NCBI RefSeq assembly: GCF_003967355.1
Contig: NZ_BIFH01000033.1
Span: 1 to 64,000 of the forward strand
Length of the DNA stretch: 64,000 nucleotides
Source: Embleya hyalina
GTDB lineage: Bacteria; Actinomycetota; Actinomycetes; Streptomycetales; Streptomycetaceae
Reading direction: 5' to 3'
In this document: piece after piece, positions 18,260 through 28,804 of the stretch
Layout of the letters: every line of letters begins with the position of its first letter
Position numbering within the stretch: position 1 is the stretch's first letter
Notes under the pieces: generated by a model
The model's database searches: none
What the model saw: the letters and a program-made list of their open reading frames with translations, nothing else
What the model was told of the DNA's origin: nothing
Translations under genes and position numbers: made by a program

Positions 18260-18276
18260 GGGCACGGCCCGGGTGG

Positions 18277-18700
18277 GTCCTCGAACGCCGGACGGGCTGG
18301 GGCCTCGGCCGCGAACGATGCCGGCCGCCACGTGCGGTGGCCGGCCTCCGGCCCGGTTGTCCTCAAACGCCGGACGGGCTGTTCCGGCCTCGAGCGCCGG
18401 CCCGGCTGGTCGGCCGCAAACGCCGGCCGGGCTGGGGTTGGGCTGGTGTGGGCTTGGAGGTTGCGGCTGGGGATGGGTGCCGGATGGGCTGCTTGTCCTC
18501 GAGTGCCGGACGGGCTGTTTGGCTTCGAGCGCCGGGCGGGCCGGCGTTGGGCTCCGGTGGGCCTGGAGGGCGCGGCTGGGGACGGGTGTTGGACGGGCCG
18601 GGTGGCTTCAAGCGCCGGCTCGGCTGTTTGGGTTCGAAGGGCGGACGGGCTGAGGTTGGGTTGGTGCGGGTTCGGAGGCCGGGGTCGGGCGCGGGTGTTC
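18277..18700 (+). repeat. Degenerate 26-bp repeat block, plus orientation
   Basis: Non-coding stretch downstream of a plus-strand gene, built from degraded copies of a unit with core CGCCGGMCGGGCTG preceded by CTCRAR. Clear 26-bp units start at 18277, 18386, 18412, 18495, 18521, 18604 and 18630; some neighbours are exactly 26 bp apart (18386/18412, 18495/18521, 18604/18630), and one interval is 27. The long frames across it are an effect of few stop codons in GC-rich repeats. Same family as the array at 28103-28336. Confidence 0.75.
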
Positions 18701-18714
18701 GGACGGGTGGGTTG

Positions 18715-19000
18715 TCGACAGCCTGTCCGGCGTTCGAGGACGGCCGGGCCGGAGGCCGGCCTCGGCGTGAGCGGGGTGTTGGGTGGCCGGCCCGTCGGCA
18801 ACGTTCATTGCCGAACGCAGCCGACGATCCGGCCTGTCCGGCGTTCGAGGGTGGCCGGGCCGGGGCGGCTTCGGGGGGGATGGGTGTGGGGCCGGGCTCG
18901 TCGGCGACGTTCGTGGCTGAACGCGGCCGAGTGGGGTGGTGGCCGGCCCGTCGGGAACCTTTGTTGCCGACGGGCCGAGGGAATCCAGCCCGTCCGGGGC
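18715..19000 (-). repeat. Degenerate 26-bp repeat block, minus orientation
   Basis: The same repeat core appears here as its reverse complement (CTGTCCGGCGTTCGAGG at about 18723-18739 and 18835-18850, and a weaker CAGCCCGTCCGG near 18987). The block lies downstream of the minus-strand ABC exporter genes. It also contains a longer direct repeat, GGCCGGCCCGTCGG followed by AAC and TTGCCGA, near 18786 and 18941. No gene is supported in this interval. Confidence 0.65.
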
Positions 19001-19026
19001 GGGGGCGGCTCAGGGGATGTGGGGTG

Positions 19027-20886
19027 TCAGGGTGGGCTCGGGGTGGTTTTTTGTTGGGCTGTCCAGGACGCGTGCAGGCGGGCGTAGATTCCTCCGGTGT
19101 TGACCAGCCTTGTGTGCGGGCCGCGTTCGACCAGCTTTCCGGCGTCGAACACCAGGACCTCGTCCGCCGATTCGGCCGTGGACATCCGGTGCGCGATGAA
19201 CACCGCGGTGCGGCCCCGGGTCAGCCCGTCCAGCGCCCGGTTGATCCGGACCTCGGTGGCCGGGTCGACCGCCGACGTCGCCTCGTCCAGGACCAGCAGG
19301 TCCGGGTCGGCGATGTAGGCCCGGACCAGCGCGACCAACTGCCGCTCGCCCGCCGACAACGACTCGCCGCGCTGACCCACCCGGGTGTCCAGGCCGGCGG
19401 CCAGTCCCGCGAGCCAGTCGGCCAGCCCCAGGTCGGCGAACGCGCCGACGATCGCCGCGTCGTCCGCGTCCGGCCGGCCGTACCGCACGTTCTCGCGCAG
19501 CGTGGCGTCGAACAGGAAGCCCTCCTGCGGCACCATCACCACCCGCGCGCGCAGCGACGAGAAGCGCACCCGGGGCAGTTCGACGCCGTCGAGCAACACC
19601 CGGCCCTCGTCCGGGTCGACCAGGCGGGTGAGCAGCTTGGCGAACGTGGTCTTGCCCGAGCCGGTCTCGCCGACCACCGCCACCCGGGTCCGGGGCGCGA
19701 GCGTGACGTCCACGTCGTGCAGGATCCGCGGGCCACCGGGATAGCCGTACGAGACGTGGTCGAACCTCACCTCGACCGGGCCGCGGGCCAACTCCTCGCC
19801 CGCCGCGCCCGGATCGGCGATGTCCGGCTCCGCGTCCAGCACCTCCAGCACCCGACGCCAGCCCGCGAGCGCGTTCTGCGCCTCGTTCAGGATCTCCACG
19901 CCCATCTGCACCGGCCCCACGAACAACGTGACCAGGAACAGGAACGCGACCAGCTCGCCCACGCTGAGCTGCCCGTCGATGCCCAGCCACACCCCGACGA
20001 CCACCACCAGGCCGTTGGCCAGGCCGACCACGAACTCGCCCATCGGGAAGGTCAACGCGACGAACAACTGGGCCCGGGTCTGCGCGTCGCGGTGCGCGTC
20101 GACCGACTCGTCGATCCGGCGCGCGGTGCGCTCCTCGATGCCGTGCGCGCGCACGATCGCGGCGCCCACGACCGGCTCCGAGATGGCGCCCAGCATCCGG
20201 CCCATGGCGACGCGCACGTGTGAGTACGCGGCGGCGATCCGCTTCTGTACCGCGCGCATGAAGAAGTACAGCGGCGCGAAGCACACCCACACCAGCAGGG
20301 TCAGCTGCCAGGAGTAGACGAACATCAGCACCGTCACCAGCGCGATCTGCCCGACGCTGACGATCAGCAACAGGCCGCCGAACTGGATGAATCGGCTGAT
20401 CGTGTCCACGTCGCCGGTCACCCGCGAGACCAGCGAGCCGCGCTTCTCGGACTGCTGGTGCAGCGTGGACAGGTCGTGGATGTGCCGGAAGGCGGCCACC
20501 CGCATCGTGGACAGGCCGCGTTCGCTGGTGCGGTACAGCCGCACGTTCATCGCGTACGCGGACACCGCGGTGACCACCACCGCCAACGCGGCGAGCGCGG
20601 CCATCGTGCGCACCACGGTCAGGTCGGGACCGGCGTCGGCGCGCAGACCCCGGTCGATGGTCTGCTGCACGGCCAGCGGCACCACGATCCGGCCGGCCGT
20701 GCCGATCACGGCCAGCAGCAGGGTGACGATCAGACCCTCGGTGAACTCCGGGGTCATCCGCAGGCCGCGGCGCAGCACGCTCAGGCCGGACTCGGTCGGC
20801 GTGTCGGCGTCGGCGGCTATTCGGGAGCCCGACCTCGGCTCCGGCTCGGGTTCGGCCGGCTTGGGCACGGCGGTGGCGATACTCAT
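19027..20886 (-). CDS. ABC exporter half-transporter, subunit with intact Walker site
   Basis: 619-aa fused membrane and ATPase protein of the type I exporter class. Six membrane helices (about residues 55-330) precede the nucleotide-binding domain with Walker A VVGETGSGKTT, signature SLSAGERQL, Walker B LLVLDEATSAVD (catalytic Glu E535) and switch His H566 in IAHRMST. The signature deviates from LSGGQ. Its ATG overlaps the stop of the upstream subunit gene by four bases. The two subunits probably form a heterodimer of BmrCD or TM287/288 type. Substrate unknown; drugs or lipids are usual. Confidence 0.88.
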   Translation of the reverse strand: MSIATAVPKPAEPEPEPRSGSRIAADADTPTESGLSVLRRGLRMTPEFTEGLIVTLLLAVIGTAGRIVVPLAVQQTIDRGLRADAGPDLTVVRTMAALAALAVVVTAVSAYAMNVRLYRTSERGLSTMRVAAFRHIHDLSTLHQQSEKRGSLVSRVTGDVDTISRFIQFGGLLLIVSVGQIALVTVLMFVYSWQLTLLVWVCFAPLYFFMRAVQKRIAAAYSHVRVAMGRMLGAISEPVVGAAIVRAHGIEERTARRIDESVDAHRDAQTRAQLFVALTFPMGEFVVGLANGLVVVVGVWLGIDGQLSVGELVAFLFLVTLFVGPVQMGVEILNEAQNALAGWRRVLEVLDAEPDIADPGAAGEELARGPVEVRFDHVSYGYPGGPRILHDVDVTLAPRTRVAVVGETGSGKTTFAKLLTRLVDPDEGRVLLDGVELPRVRFSSLRARVVMVPQEGFLFDATLRENVRYGRPDADDAAIVGAFADLGLADWLAGLAAGLDTRVGQRGESLSAGERQLVALVRAYIADPDLLVLDEATSAVDPATEVRINRALDGLTRGRTAVFIAHRMSTAESADEVLVFDAGKLVERGPHTRLVNTGGIYARLHASWTAQQKTTPSPP

Positions 20887-27845: not shown

Positions 27846-28055
27846 ATGTCGTCGCAAGCCGGAAACCACGGCAGCACCCCCGCGGCCTGGACCGTGACCA
27901 TACTGGCGCTGATCGGTTGCACCGTCTCGGGTGTCGCGATGATCGCGGCCAACGTGATGCTTTTCTGGGTCGGGGCCGCGGTGGTGTTGGTCGGCTGCAT
28001 CGCCGGTGCGGGGATGCGGATGGGTGGGCTCGGGGCTGCGCCCGCGCGTCGCTGA
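27846..28055 (+). CDS. HGxxPAAW family small membrane protein
   Basis: 69-aa protein carrying the family-defining HGSTPAAW motif near its N-terminus, followed by two membrane helices (TVTILALIGCTVSGVAMIAAN and MLFWVGAAVVLVGCIAGAGM). Small proteins of this family occur next to trp genes in actinobacteria and have no known function. GAAGGAG at 27832-27838 gives a strong ribosome binding site. The array of 26-bp repeats starts 47 bp after its stop. Confidence 0.85.
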   Translation: MSSQAGNHGSTPAAWTVTILALIGCTVSGVAMIAANVMLFWVGAAVVLVGCIAGAGMRMGGLGAAPARR

Positions 28056-28102
28056 CGCCTCCGCCTTCGGCCCCATGCGACTCGGGCCGTGCGGCGGCCT
28101 TT

Positions 28103-28336
28103 GGCCTCAAACGCCGGCCTGGCTGGGTGGCCTCAAACGCCGGCCGGGCTGATTGGGCTCGTGCGTTGGTCGGGCTGTTTGGGCTCGGGTGTCGGCCGGG
28201 CTGGGTGGCCTCAAGCGCCGGCCGGGCTGATTGGGCTCGTGCGTTGGTCGGGCTGTTTGGGCTCGGGCGCTGGCCGGGCTGAGTGGGCTCAAGCGCTGGT
28301 CGGGCTGTTTGGGCTCACGCGTCGGTCGGGCTGTTT
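28103..28336 (+). repeat. Nine-copy 26-bp tandem repeat array
   Basis: Nine consecutive units of exactly 26 bp with no insertion or deletion (starts at 28103, 28129, 28155, 28181, 28207, 28233, 28259, 28285 and 28311). Each has the form GGSCTC-N4-CG-YYGG-YCGGGCTG followed by three variable bases. A higher-order period of 78 bp is present: units 2-4 and 5-7 are almost identical copies. It lies in a 356-bp non-coding interval in the same orientation as the flanking genes. The remaining 28337-28400 is G- and T-rich and holds no gene. Confidence 0.9.
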
Positions 28337-28411
28337 GGGTTGGGGGTGGTGGGTTTTCGGGTGGTGGTGGGTGGGGTGTTCTAGGGTTGGCGTGTCGGCC
28401 TAGGGGGGAAT

Positions 28412-28804
28412 GTGGCGTACGGCTACCCGGGGGATCCCGGTGGTGGGGATCGGGCGCGGGAGTGGAGTGCGCCGCCTCGGCCGTTCGGACATGCCGTGCC
28501 CCCCTATGGGCCGCCCACCACGCCGCCGCCCGCGGGGCCGCCGCCGGGGGCGCCGGACAACTACCTCGCCTGGGCGGTCGTGGCGACCGTGTTCTGTTGT
28601 TTCCTGGCCGGGGTTCCGGCGTTGCTGGCGGCCACCAGCGTCAACGAGCGGTGGCAGCGCGGTGATGTGGCGGGAGCCCGGCTCGCCTCGCTGCGGGCGC
28701 GCAACTGGACGATCGGGACCGTCCTGCTCGGTGTGATCTTCTGGACCACCTGGATGGTCGGTGTCTTCCTGCTCGGCTGGAAAGACACGTTGGGTGACCT
28801 GTGA
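28412..28804 (+). CDS. CD225/dispanin-type small membrane protein
   Basis: 130-aa protein with a Pro- and Gly-rich N-terminus of about 48 residues, then the dispanin pattern: a first hydrophobic segment NYLAWAVVATVFCCFLAGVPALLAA with the paired cysteines, an amphipathic loop (SVNERWQRGDVAGARLASLRARNW), and a second helix (IGTVLLGVIFWTTWMVGVFLLG). Bacterial members are of unknown function; the family name comes from interferon-induced transmembrane proteins. GTG 28412 follows a GGGGGG tract. It is upstream of the DUF2752 gene by 28 bp, and in Streptomyces these two are often adjacent. Confidence 0.8.
   Translation: MAYGYPGDPGGGDRAREWSAPPRPFGHAVPPYGPPTTPPPAGPPPGAPDNYLAWAVVATVFCCFLAGVPALLAATSVNERWQRGDVAGARLASLRARNWTIGTVLLGVIFWTTWMVGVFLLGWKDTLGDL

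Follow-up and report, generated by a model that had tools for sequence, protein, structure and literature searches.

Short stem-loop repeats are known as the REP and BIME elements of enterobacteria and pseudomonads, which occur in hundreds of copies per genome in the 3′ flanks of genes, sometimes in clusters, and for which roles in mRNA stabilisation and in termination have been proposed. REP elements mobilised by RAYT carry a GTAG-type tetranucleotide at the hairpin foot, and CRISPR arrays consist of identical repeats separated by unique spacers that are about 30 bp long. Part of the REP/BIME description is found in a passage of PMC1590033, which also presents the repeated stem-loop families Bor, Ype and Efa, biased to gene 3′ ends. 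For Streptomyces, passages of Term-seq studies (PMC6742748, PMC8269248, PMC8780764 and PMC12207403) describe GC-rich stems near transcript ends with weak U-tracts. Here, we report on a tandem array in a bacterial contig (the whole stretch analysed, 64,000 nucleotides, is referred to as the window), which is very likely a head-to-tail concatemer of one short dispersed stem-loop repeat.

Nine tandem 26-bp units in a trp region

Nine 26-bp units follow one another without indels at 28100–28333 on the + strand, in the register of the core, each unit being made of 5 nt of 5′ side and a 21-nt core. TRF reported a 26-bp period (9.2 copies, 28100–28339, 78% matches, 0% indels, score 214) as well as a 78-bp period (2.9 copies, 28112–28339, 90% matches, score 365). 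Self-identity over 28103–28336 was 0.878 at lag 78 and 0.788 at lag 26, the best lag (5–119) among 2000 first-order Markov sequences of equal composition reaching 0.512. Both analyses bear out the first-pass annotation of this DNA, which had described nine indel-free 26-bp units with a 78-bp higher-order period and had correctly called units 2–4 and 5–7 near duplicates. The units and the flanking genes are as follows:

28100–28333, + strand: array of nine 26-bp units (TRF, lag analysis, core register)
28100–28125, + strand: unit 1, hairpin close to canonical, with 1 mismatch and four of the five stem pairs
28126–28151, + strand: unit 2, canonical hairpin with 0 mismatches and all five stem pairs; scored at 45.0 bits by covariance model R1, for which this unit was part of the input
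28152–28203, + strand: units 3 and 4, decayed, with 7 and 6 mismatches respectively; four of the five stem pairs are kept and the 0–12 pair is lost
28204–28229, + strand: unit 5, canonical hairpin with 1 mismatch, all five stem pairs and an R1 score of 45.3 bits
28230–28333, + strand: units 6 to 9, decayed hairpins, 4–7 mismatches, 4 of 5 pairs
27846–28055, + strand: HGxxPAAW family ORF (NF041681)
28412–28804, + strand: CD225-domain ORF (PF04505), 3′ of the array

Three units (1, 2 and 5) are thus well preserved, with 0–1 mismatches to the genome-wide core, and the remaining six of the nine are decayed, differing from it at 4–7 of 21 positions. The array begins 45 nt after the stop codon of the HGxxPAAW gene (28055) and its neighborhood is a trp region comprising trpE (PF00425/PF04715), Trp_oprn_chp, HGxxPAAW, the array, CD225 and DUF2752; the genes beyond DUF2752, recognised from their translations, are presumably trpC, trpB and trpA.

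A coding repeat was rejected, as the unit length of 26 bp is not divisible by 3 and none of the ORFs that cross the array was called a gene by the codon-usage caller; nothing points to maintenance by a protein, in agreement with the first-pass annotation. A CRISPR array was also rejected, the spacers being 5 nt here and repeating along with the unit at other loci. The same holds for a known RNA family, as no Rfam match above threshold was obtained for the hairpin loci searched: the covariance models gave no match up to E=1 on 28040–28420, and the sole match at gathering score in the 64-kb window was a tRNA. On another contig of the window genome (C17, near 73900–74020; L053 9100–9221), a palindrome of about 120 bp lies between facing hairpin arrays. 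The six Rfam matches in L053, to microRNA and VA RNA models and all below gathering score, fall on one palindrome.

A dispersed stem-loop family

In the 12.05-Mb genome, the 21-base core, CCTCAARCGCCGGMCGGGCTG, is matched exactly at 162 sites (87 forward and 75 reverse, vs 0 in the control), which form about 62 clusters when grouped by eye, and a slightly looser core pattern allowed ≤2 mismatches has 334 genome sites vs 4 in the control. Exact sites number 30, 234 and 81 in the other three genomes of the genus examined. The window itself holds a second locus, between convergent genes (18260–19027):

18272–18652, + strand: a further cluster of these hairpins, eight copies (≤4 mismatches) in a 109-bp superunit, after a Septum_form-domain gene
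18718–18857, − strand: two copies in opposite orientation, facing the 18272–18652 group, beside a convergent ABC transporter gene

Among 296 genomes of the phylum, the exact core was present in seven: the window genome, five further members of its family and, from another class, G208. A wide phylogenetic spread was nevertheless rejected, the 15 exact sites of G208, the only ones outside the family, belonging, on the 10 contigs examined (L112–L121), to a separate MITE-like repeat in which the 21-mer is included. That repeat begins CTAGTGCTCCTCCGCGGAAGT and often lies at contig ends. Within the Streptomycetaceae, the pattern BNCCTCRARCGCCGGNNGGGCTG is present in 68/200 genomes and 4/17 genera, the other 13 of the 17 genera sampled being without a match to the hairpin pattern. 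At least 114 named stretches carry two close cores (among 80 listed, 79 are from Streptomyces and 1 from Actinacidiphila), and we take the core sequence to be common in Streptomyces intergenic DNA. Absence of the repeat elsewhere in the genome and clade had been put forward as evidence against a functional array; it is present in both.

The analyses that follow use a sample of 359 hairpin sites (≤3 mismatches) drawn from flanks of about 5 kb around the exact clusters on the other contigs (shorter at contig ends) and from the whole contig of the window.

Stem, loop and covariation

With the core starting at position 0, the hairpin has a conserved stem of 5 bp, formed by the pairs (−3,15), (−2,14), (−1,13), (0,12) and (1,11). 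The 9-nt loop (positions 2–10) reads TCAARCGCC and varies mainly from A to G at positions 4–6; this constancy is partly built in, the loop and the 3′ arm being part of every search pattern, and positions −1 to −3 were free. Positions 16–20 complete a conserved 3′ foot, GGGCTG. Two main stem types, GTCC..GGAC and GGCC..GGCC, occur in the window genome, and a third, GCCC..GGGC, is present in another genus (g204, 16 genomes).

Stem bases change together most clearly at the pair (−1,13), which over the 359 sites is T-A in 158, G-C in 181 and G-T in 5. Its mutual information is 0.85 bits, the next column pair having 0.40 (86 sites, one random per cluster). In g204, this pair was Watson-Crick in 139 among the 150 matches listed (T-A 95, C-G 28, G-C 16), with one wobble and 10 unpaired. 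On named contigs, nearly all Streptomyces, it was Watson-Crick in 307/320 among the matches listed, most of these sites having been drawn with A or C required at position 13. At the pair (−2,14), G-C is swapped to C-G at 10 sites of the window genome, and C stands opposite C at 9 others, which counts against stem pairing.

In an alignment of 74 sites, one per cluster, 95.1% of stem cells were paired (shuffles 85.5%), 30 were changed on both sides (shuffles 11.9) and the covariation score was 0.290 (shuffles 0.147), none of these values being reached in 500 shuffles; controls with a slid register were at most 49% paired. Two of the five covariation measures were reached by shuffles (two-sided-change pairs in 97/500, further pair types in 62/500) because most of the two-sided changes are concentrated in a single pair. 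The covariation evidence therefore rests mainly on (−1,13).

The base opposite G15 is C or T in 70 of 80 cluster representatives, and T in 42 (medians of 200 draws), where spacer composition predicts C or T in 49%. Pairing at G15 thus seems to use G-U on the core strand. The next pair outward, (−4,16), was not supported (C or T in 47/84). In arrays of constant spacing (n=34), minor alleles made up 3.4% of core cells (111/3281) vs 15% of spacer cells (670/4458), N excluded, a comparison in which site picking favours the core, although the 3-mismatch limit alone would permit 14%. Minor-allele counts in the spacers gave no clean one-way mutation signature. Folding of five single hairpins, one of them on the opposite strand, was no better than that of shuffles (z −1.2 to 0.5), and neither was that of the whole spacer (z −1.2). 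Upstream of one hairpin in G110 (L128), tandem half elements that lack the loop were seen (CAGCCCGTCCGG); they may be a decayed or a minimal form.

Spacing and copy-number turnover

Same-strand neighbours less than 200 bp apart in the window genome are spaced by exactly 26 bp in 74 of 273 cases (25 bp in 1 and 27 bp in 8), with 14 runs of at least three units at exactly 26, so the 26-bp spacing noted by the first-pass annotation is a favoured one. C occupies position 13 in 73 of these 74 pairs. One hairpin unit has just this length, which accounts for the period; no result here favours the first-pass idea that alternate units would face opposite sides of the DNA. On named contigs, nearly all Streptomyces, a spacing of 26 was found in 1/147 among the matches listed; concatenating the bare hairpin looks like a habit of the window genus, the sister genome G002 included.

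Strict 26-bp phase, which the same annotation had taken to be preserved, did not hold up as a conserved feature: the sister has 25- and 24-bp units, other loci have private periods, and what is conserved is the stem-loop. Those private periods are of about 46–130 bp at hairpin loci elsewhere in the genome. Arrays of A-type sites have long private spacers, whose length is often constant at a given locus (61, 73, 91 etc.); six 16–18-base strings of the A-type motif had no match in the literature searched. Some arrays carry homogenised variants of their own, such as twelve TTCGG units at C54:40093 and CATG variants at C20:324809, which points to local amplification; the array at C26:258823 is of mixed variants. 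On the core strand, the spacers are strongly enriched in G and T (A 4.8%, T 25.8%, G 45.9%), as at 28336–28400 of the window. Gene ends as a whole, with or without hairpins, have no G/T skew.

An alignment of the window contig with G002 spans 208 kb, with 96.2% identity. Across 135 conserved gene gaps (genes adjacent in both, ≤4 mismatches, with gaps of unmatched gene order, the 18260 locus among them, set aside), hairpins were found in both genomes in 6, in neither in 129 and in one only in 0. Copy number differs in five of the six shared gaps (7/5, 4/10, 1/8, 5/7, 1/3 and 2/2). At the array locus, G002 has about 10–12 units (10 clear ones plus decayed ones), two of them of 25 bp, with lengths of 26, 26, 25, 26, 26, 26, 26, 25, 26, 26 and then 24 bp; TRF gives 1% indels. 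Just 5′ of this orthologous array (L010 1059–1126), G002 carries a 35-bp tandem duplication, and TRF lists none there in the window. The locus holds one decayed copy in G001 and no units in G003 or in G299, of another genus. At the 18260 locus, G002 has 10 forward copies with eight steps of 26–27 bp and one of 44, and G001 has no hairpins. Between these sisters, hairpins keep their positions but the arrays are rebuilt, with a rapid turnover of copy number.

Placement relative to genes

Gene calls came from a simple codon-usage caller that overlooked the 69-aa HGxxPAAW gene, so some hairpin-gene distances are too long. The 359 sites lie in convergent gaps (206), tandem gaps (141), divergent gaps (6), at edges (5) and inside a called gene (1). 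By region, 41 of 71 are convergent, 28 tandem and 2 divergent. Divergent gaps make up 27% of the intergenic bases fetched, and hairpins avoid them with P=6e-8 in this sample fetched around hairpins. In convergent regions with hairpins of one direction, the array is nearer the stop of the sense gene in 27/33 (p=3e-4; median 34 vs 90 nt). Same-strand runs follow a sense gene in 67 of 82 cases, 59 of them within 81 nt, and 15 runs do not; in convergent gaps a preceding sense gene is automatic.

The runs that follow a sense gene start at a median of 37 nt past the stop, which places the end of the core near 58 nt from it. A passage of PMC12207403 gives median distances to Streptomyces transcript ends of 66–76 nt. 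Runs in tandem gaps are sense in 18 cases vs antisense in 13, so a strictly sense orientation is only partly true and was rejected. Missed genes were also rejected as the reason for the antisense runs: a low-threshold ORF search yielded weak candidates at best (best score 6.3), including a 60-aa ORF ending 33 nt before the C26 array.

Regions with hairpins on both strands have the facing order (+ then −) in 11/11 cases in the window genome, 12/12 in G401 and 0/4 in G110, and on named contigs in 12 vs 13 adjacent pairs among the matches listed. In G110 (L125, L127, L129 and L130), the diverging cores enclose GGAACC..GGTTCC inverted repeats, clear in L125, L127 and L130. These pairs, opposite in orientation to those of the window genus, look like small MITEs.

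A possible role at mRNA 3′ ends

As an overall reading, for and against which we find ourselves evenly balanced, the array would be a REP-like 3′-flank hairpin repeat, probably an mRNA 3′-end element, and tandem duplication would have expanded it locally. One or more hairpins would fold in the transcript of the upstream gene, soon after the stop codon. These might form or protect the 3′ end, through termination without a strong U-tract or as a barrier to 3′ exonucleases, and the bare 26-nt units would have been multiplied by local tandem duplication, with a 78-bp step at 28100–28333. Taken by itself and from sequence, the 3′-end role is a tentative proposal that falls just short of an even balance. 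It is favoured by the placement after stops, the compensatory stem changes, the T or C facing G15 and a distance compatible with transcript ends; it is weakened by the orientation in tandem gaps, the absent U-tract, the unremarkable folding energies and the rarity of the hairpins at gene ends. The hairpins present a GC stem-loop after a stop codon, as intrinsic terminators do, and no U-tract after the stem, positions 18–27 (10 nt) containing about 3 T and no run. A passage of PMC12207403 gives 3–4 as the corresponding figure for Streptomyces U-tracts. A more specific version, which we regard as quite unlikely, would be an RNA hairpin class particular to the Streptomycetaceae, in which a dedicated factor would read the loop (UCAARCGCC) and the foot (GGGCUG) at mRNA 3′ ends and the length of the array would tune read-through or stability of the upstream gene.

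The main rival of the 3′-end role is a selfish interspersed repeat, REP- or MITE-like, in which a putative transposase or nuclease would read the stem-loop and its foot, the 3′ flanks of genes would merely tolerate insertions and the arrays would serve no use. The family is dispersed, of high copy and patchy across genera, related genomes having anything between 0 and 234 exact sites; its hairpin with a conserved foot recalls the REP layout, and three of the four mixed regions of G110 are MITE-like with GGAACC..GGTTCC inside diverging cores. We nonetheless consider this explanation unlikely. Presence in one sister only was never seen at the 135 conserved gaps, no common unit larger than the hairpin emerged among 12 loci examined, and the avoidance of divergent regions and the nearness to sense stops would need an extra reason. 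As for the enzyme, the hairpins are short, of high copy and extragenic, as RAYT-mobilised REPs are, but RAYT (Y1_Tnp, PF01797) is absent from 4/4 genomes of the genus and from 3/8 other hairpin-bearing genomes, with a match in 5/12 genomes searched overall, and RAYT-driven REP was rejected for the window genus on the absence of a Y1 transposase in its four genomes. The position table (−14 to +32) shows no conspicuous GTAG, the foot being GGGCTG on the 3′ side.

The array itself could be a neutral minisatellite without function, whose period is the size of the duplicated seed, an explanation that is compatible with other readings of the single hairpin and that we hold to be possible, if somewhat doubtful. 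The decay of six of the nine units, the reduction of the locus to one decayed copy in G001 and to none in G003 and G299, and the different organisation of the 18260 locus in the sister (a 109-bp superunit here, 26–27 bp there) are all consistent with it; it accounts for array length, but not for the family, the covarying stem or a core that varies less than its spacers. A site acting at the DNA level, with a nucleoid, recombination or replication protein binding the duplex or extruded core and the arrays being clustered sites, would fit the well conserved core, the common 26-bp spacing and the arrays at many loci. It is the reading that we find most improbable, as stem bases change with pairing kept, which recognition of a duplex does not need, the preference for T opposite G is one-stranded, and spacing is locus-dependent, with 26 in only 74/273 neighbours.

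If a 3′-end role is right, some streptomycete genomes hold hundreds of structured gene-end elements, which would offer a handle on how very GC-rich bacteria end transcripts without U-tracts, and hairpin repeats would spread and concatenate without RAYT.

Comparison with known systems

The hairpin family is not named in Rfam or in the passages of the Streptomyces Term-seq papers (PMC6742748, PMC8269248, PMC8780764 and PMC12207403), whose stem-loops are not described there as a repeat family with a conserved loop. Neither the passages of a 40-genome stem-loop survey (PMC1590033) nor those of a 50-genome ncRNA search mention it, and Streptomyces is not among the lines covered of the genome table of PMC1590033. 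No published description was found in the parts of the literature searched, and an earlier mention is possible. The Bor, Ype and Efa families in the passage of PMC1590033 come from Bordetella, Yersinia and Enterococcus, and the likeness is one of description.

Bacterial VNTRs and minisatellites share the tandem copies and the fast turnover of copy number, but the seed of the array here is a dispersed hairpin family, so that many loci have one core in common. In layout the family resembles REP/BIME, with short stem-loops in hundreds of copies, located in gene 3′ flanks and in part clustered, and with a sequence that differs from the one described here. REP/BIME hairpins are held to form or protect 3′ ends, the role proposed here too; the present family differs from them in its conserved 9-nt loop with a covarying stem and in its head-to-tail concatemers of bare 26-nt units.
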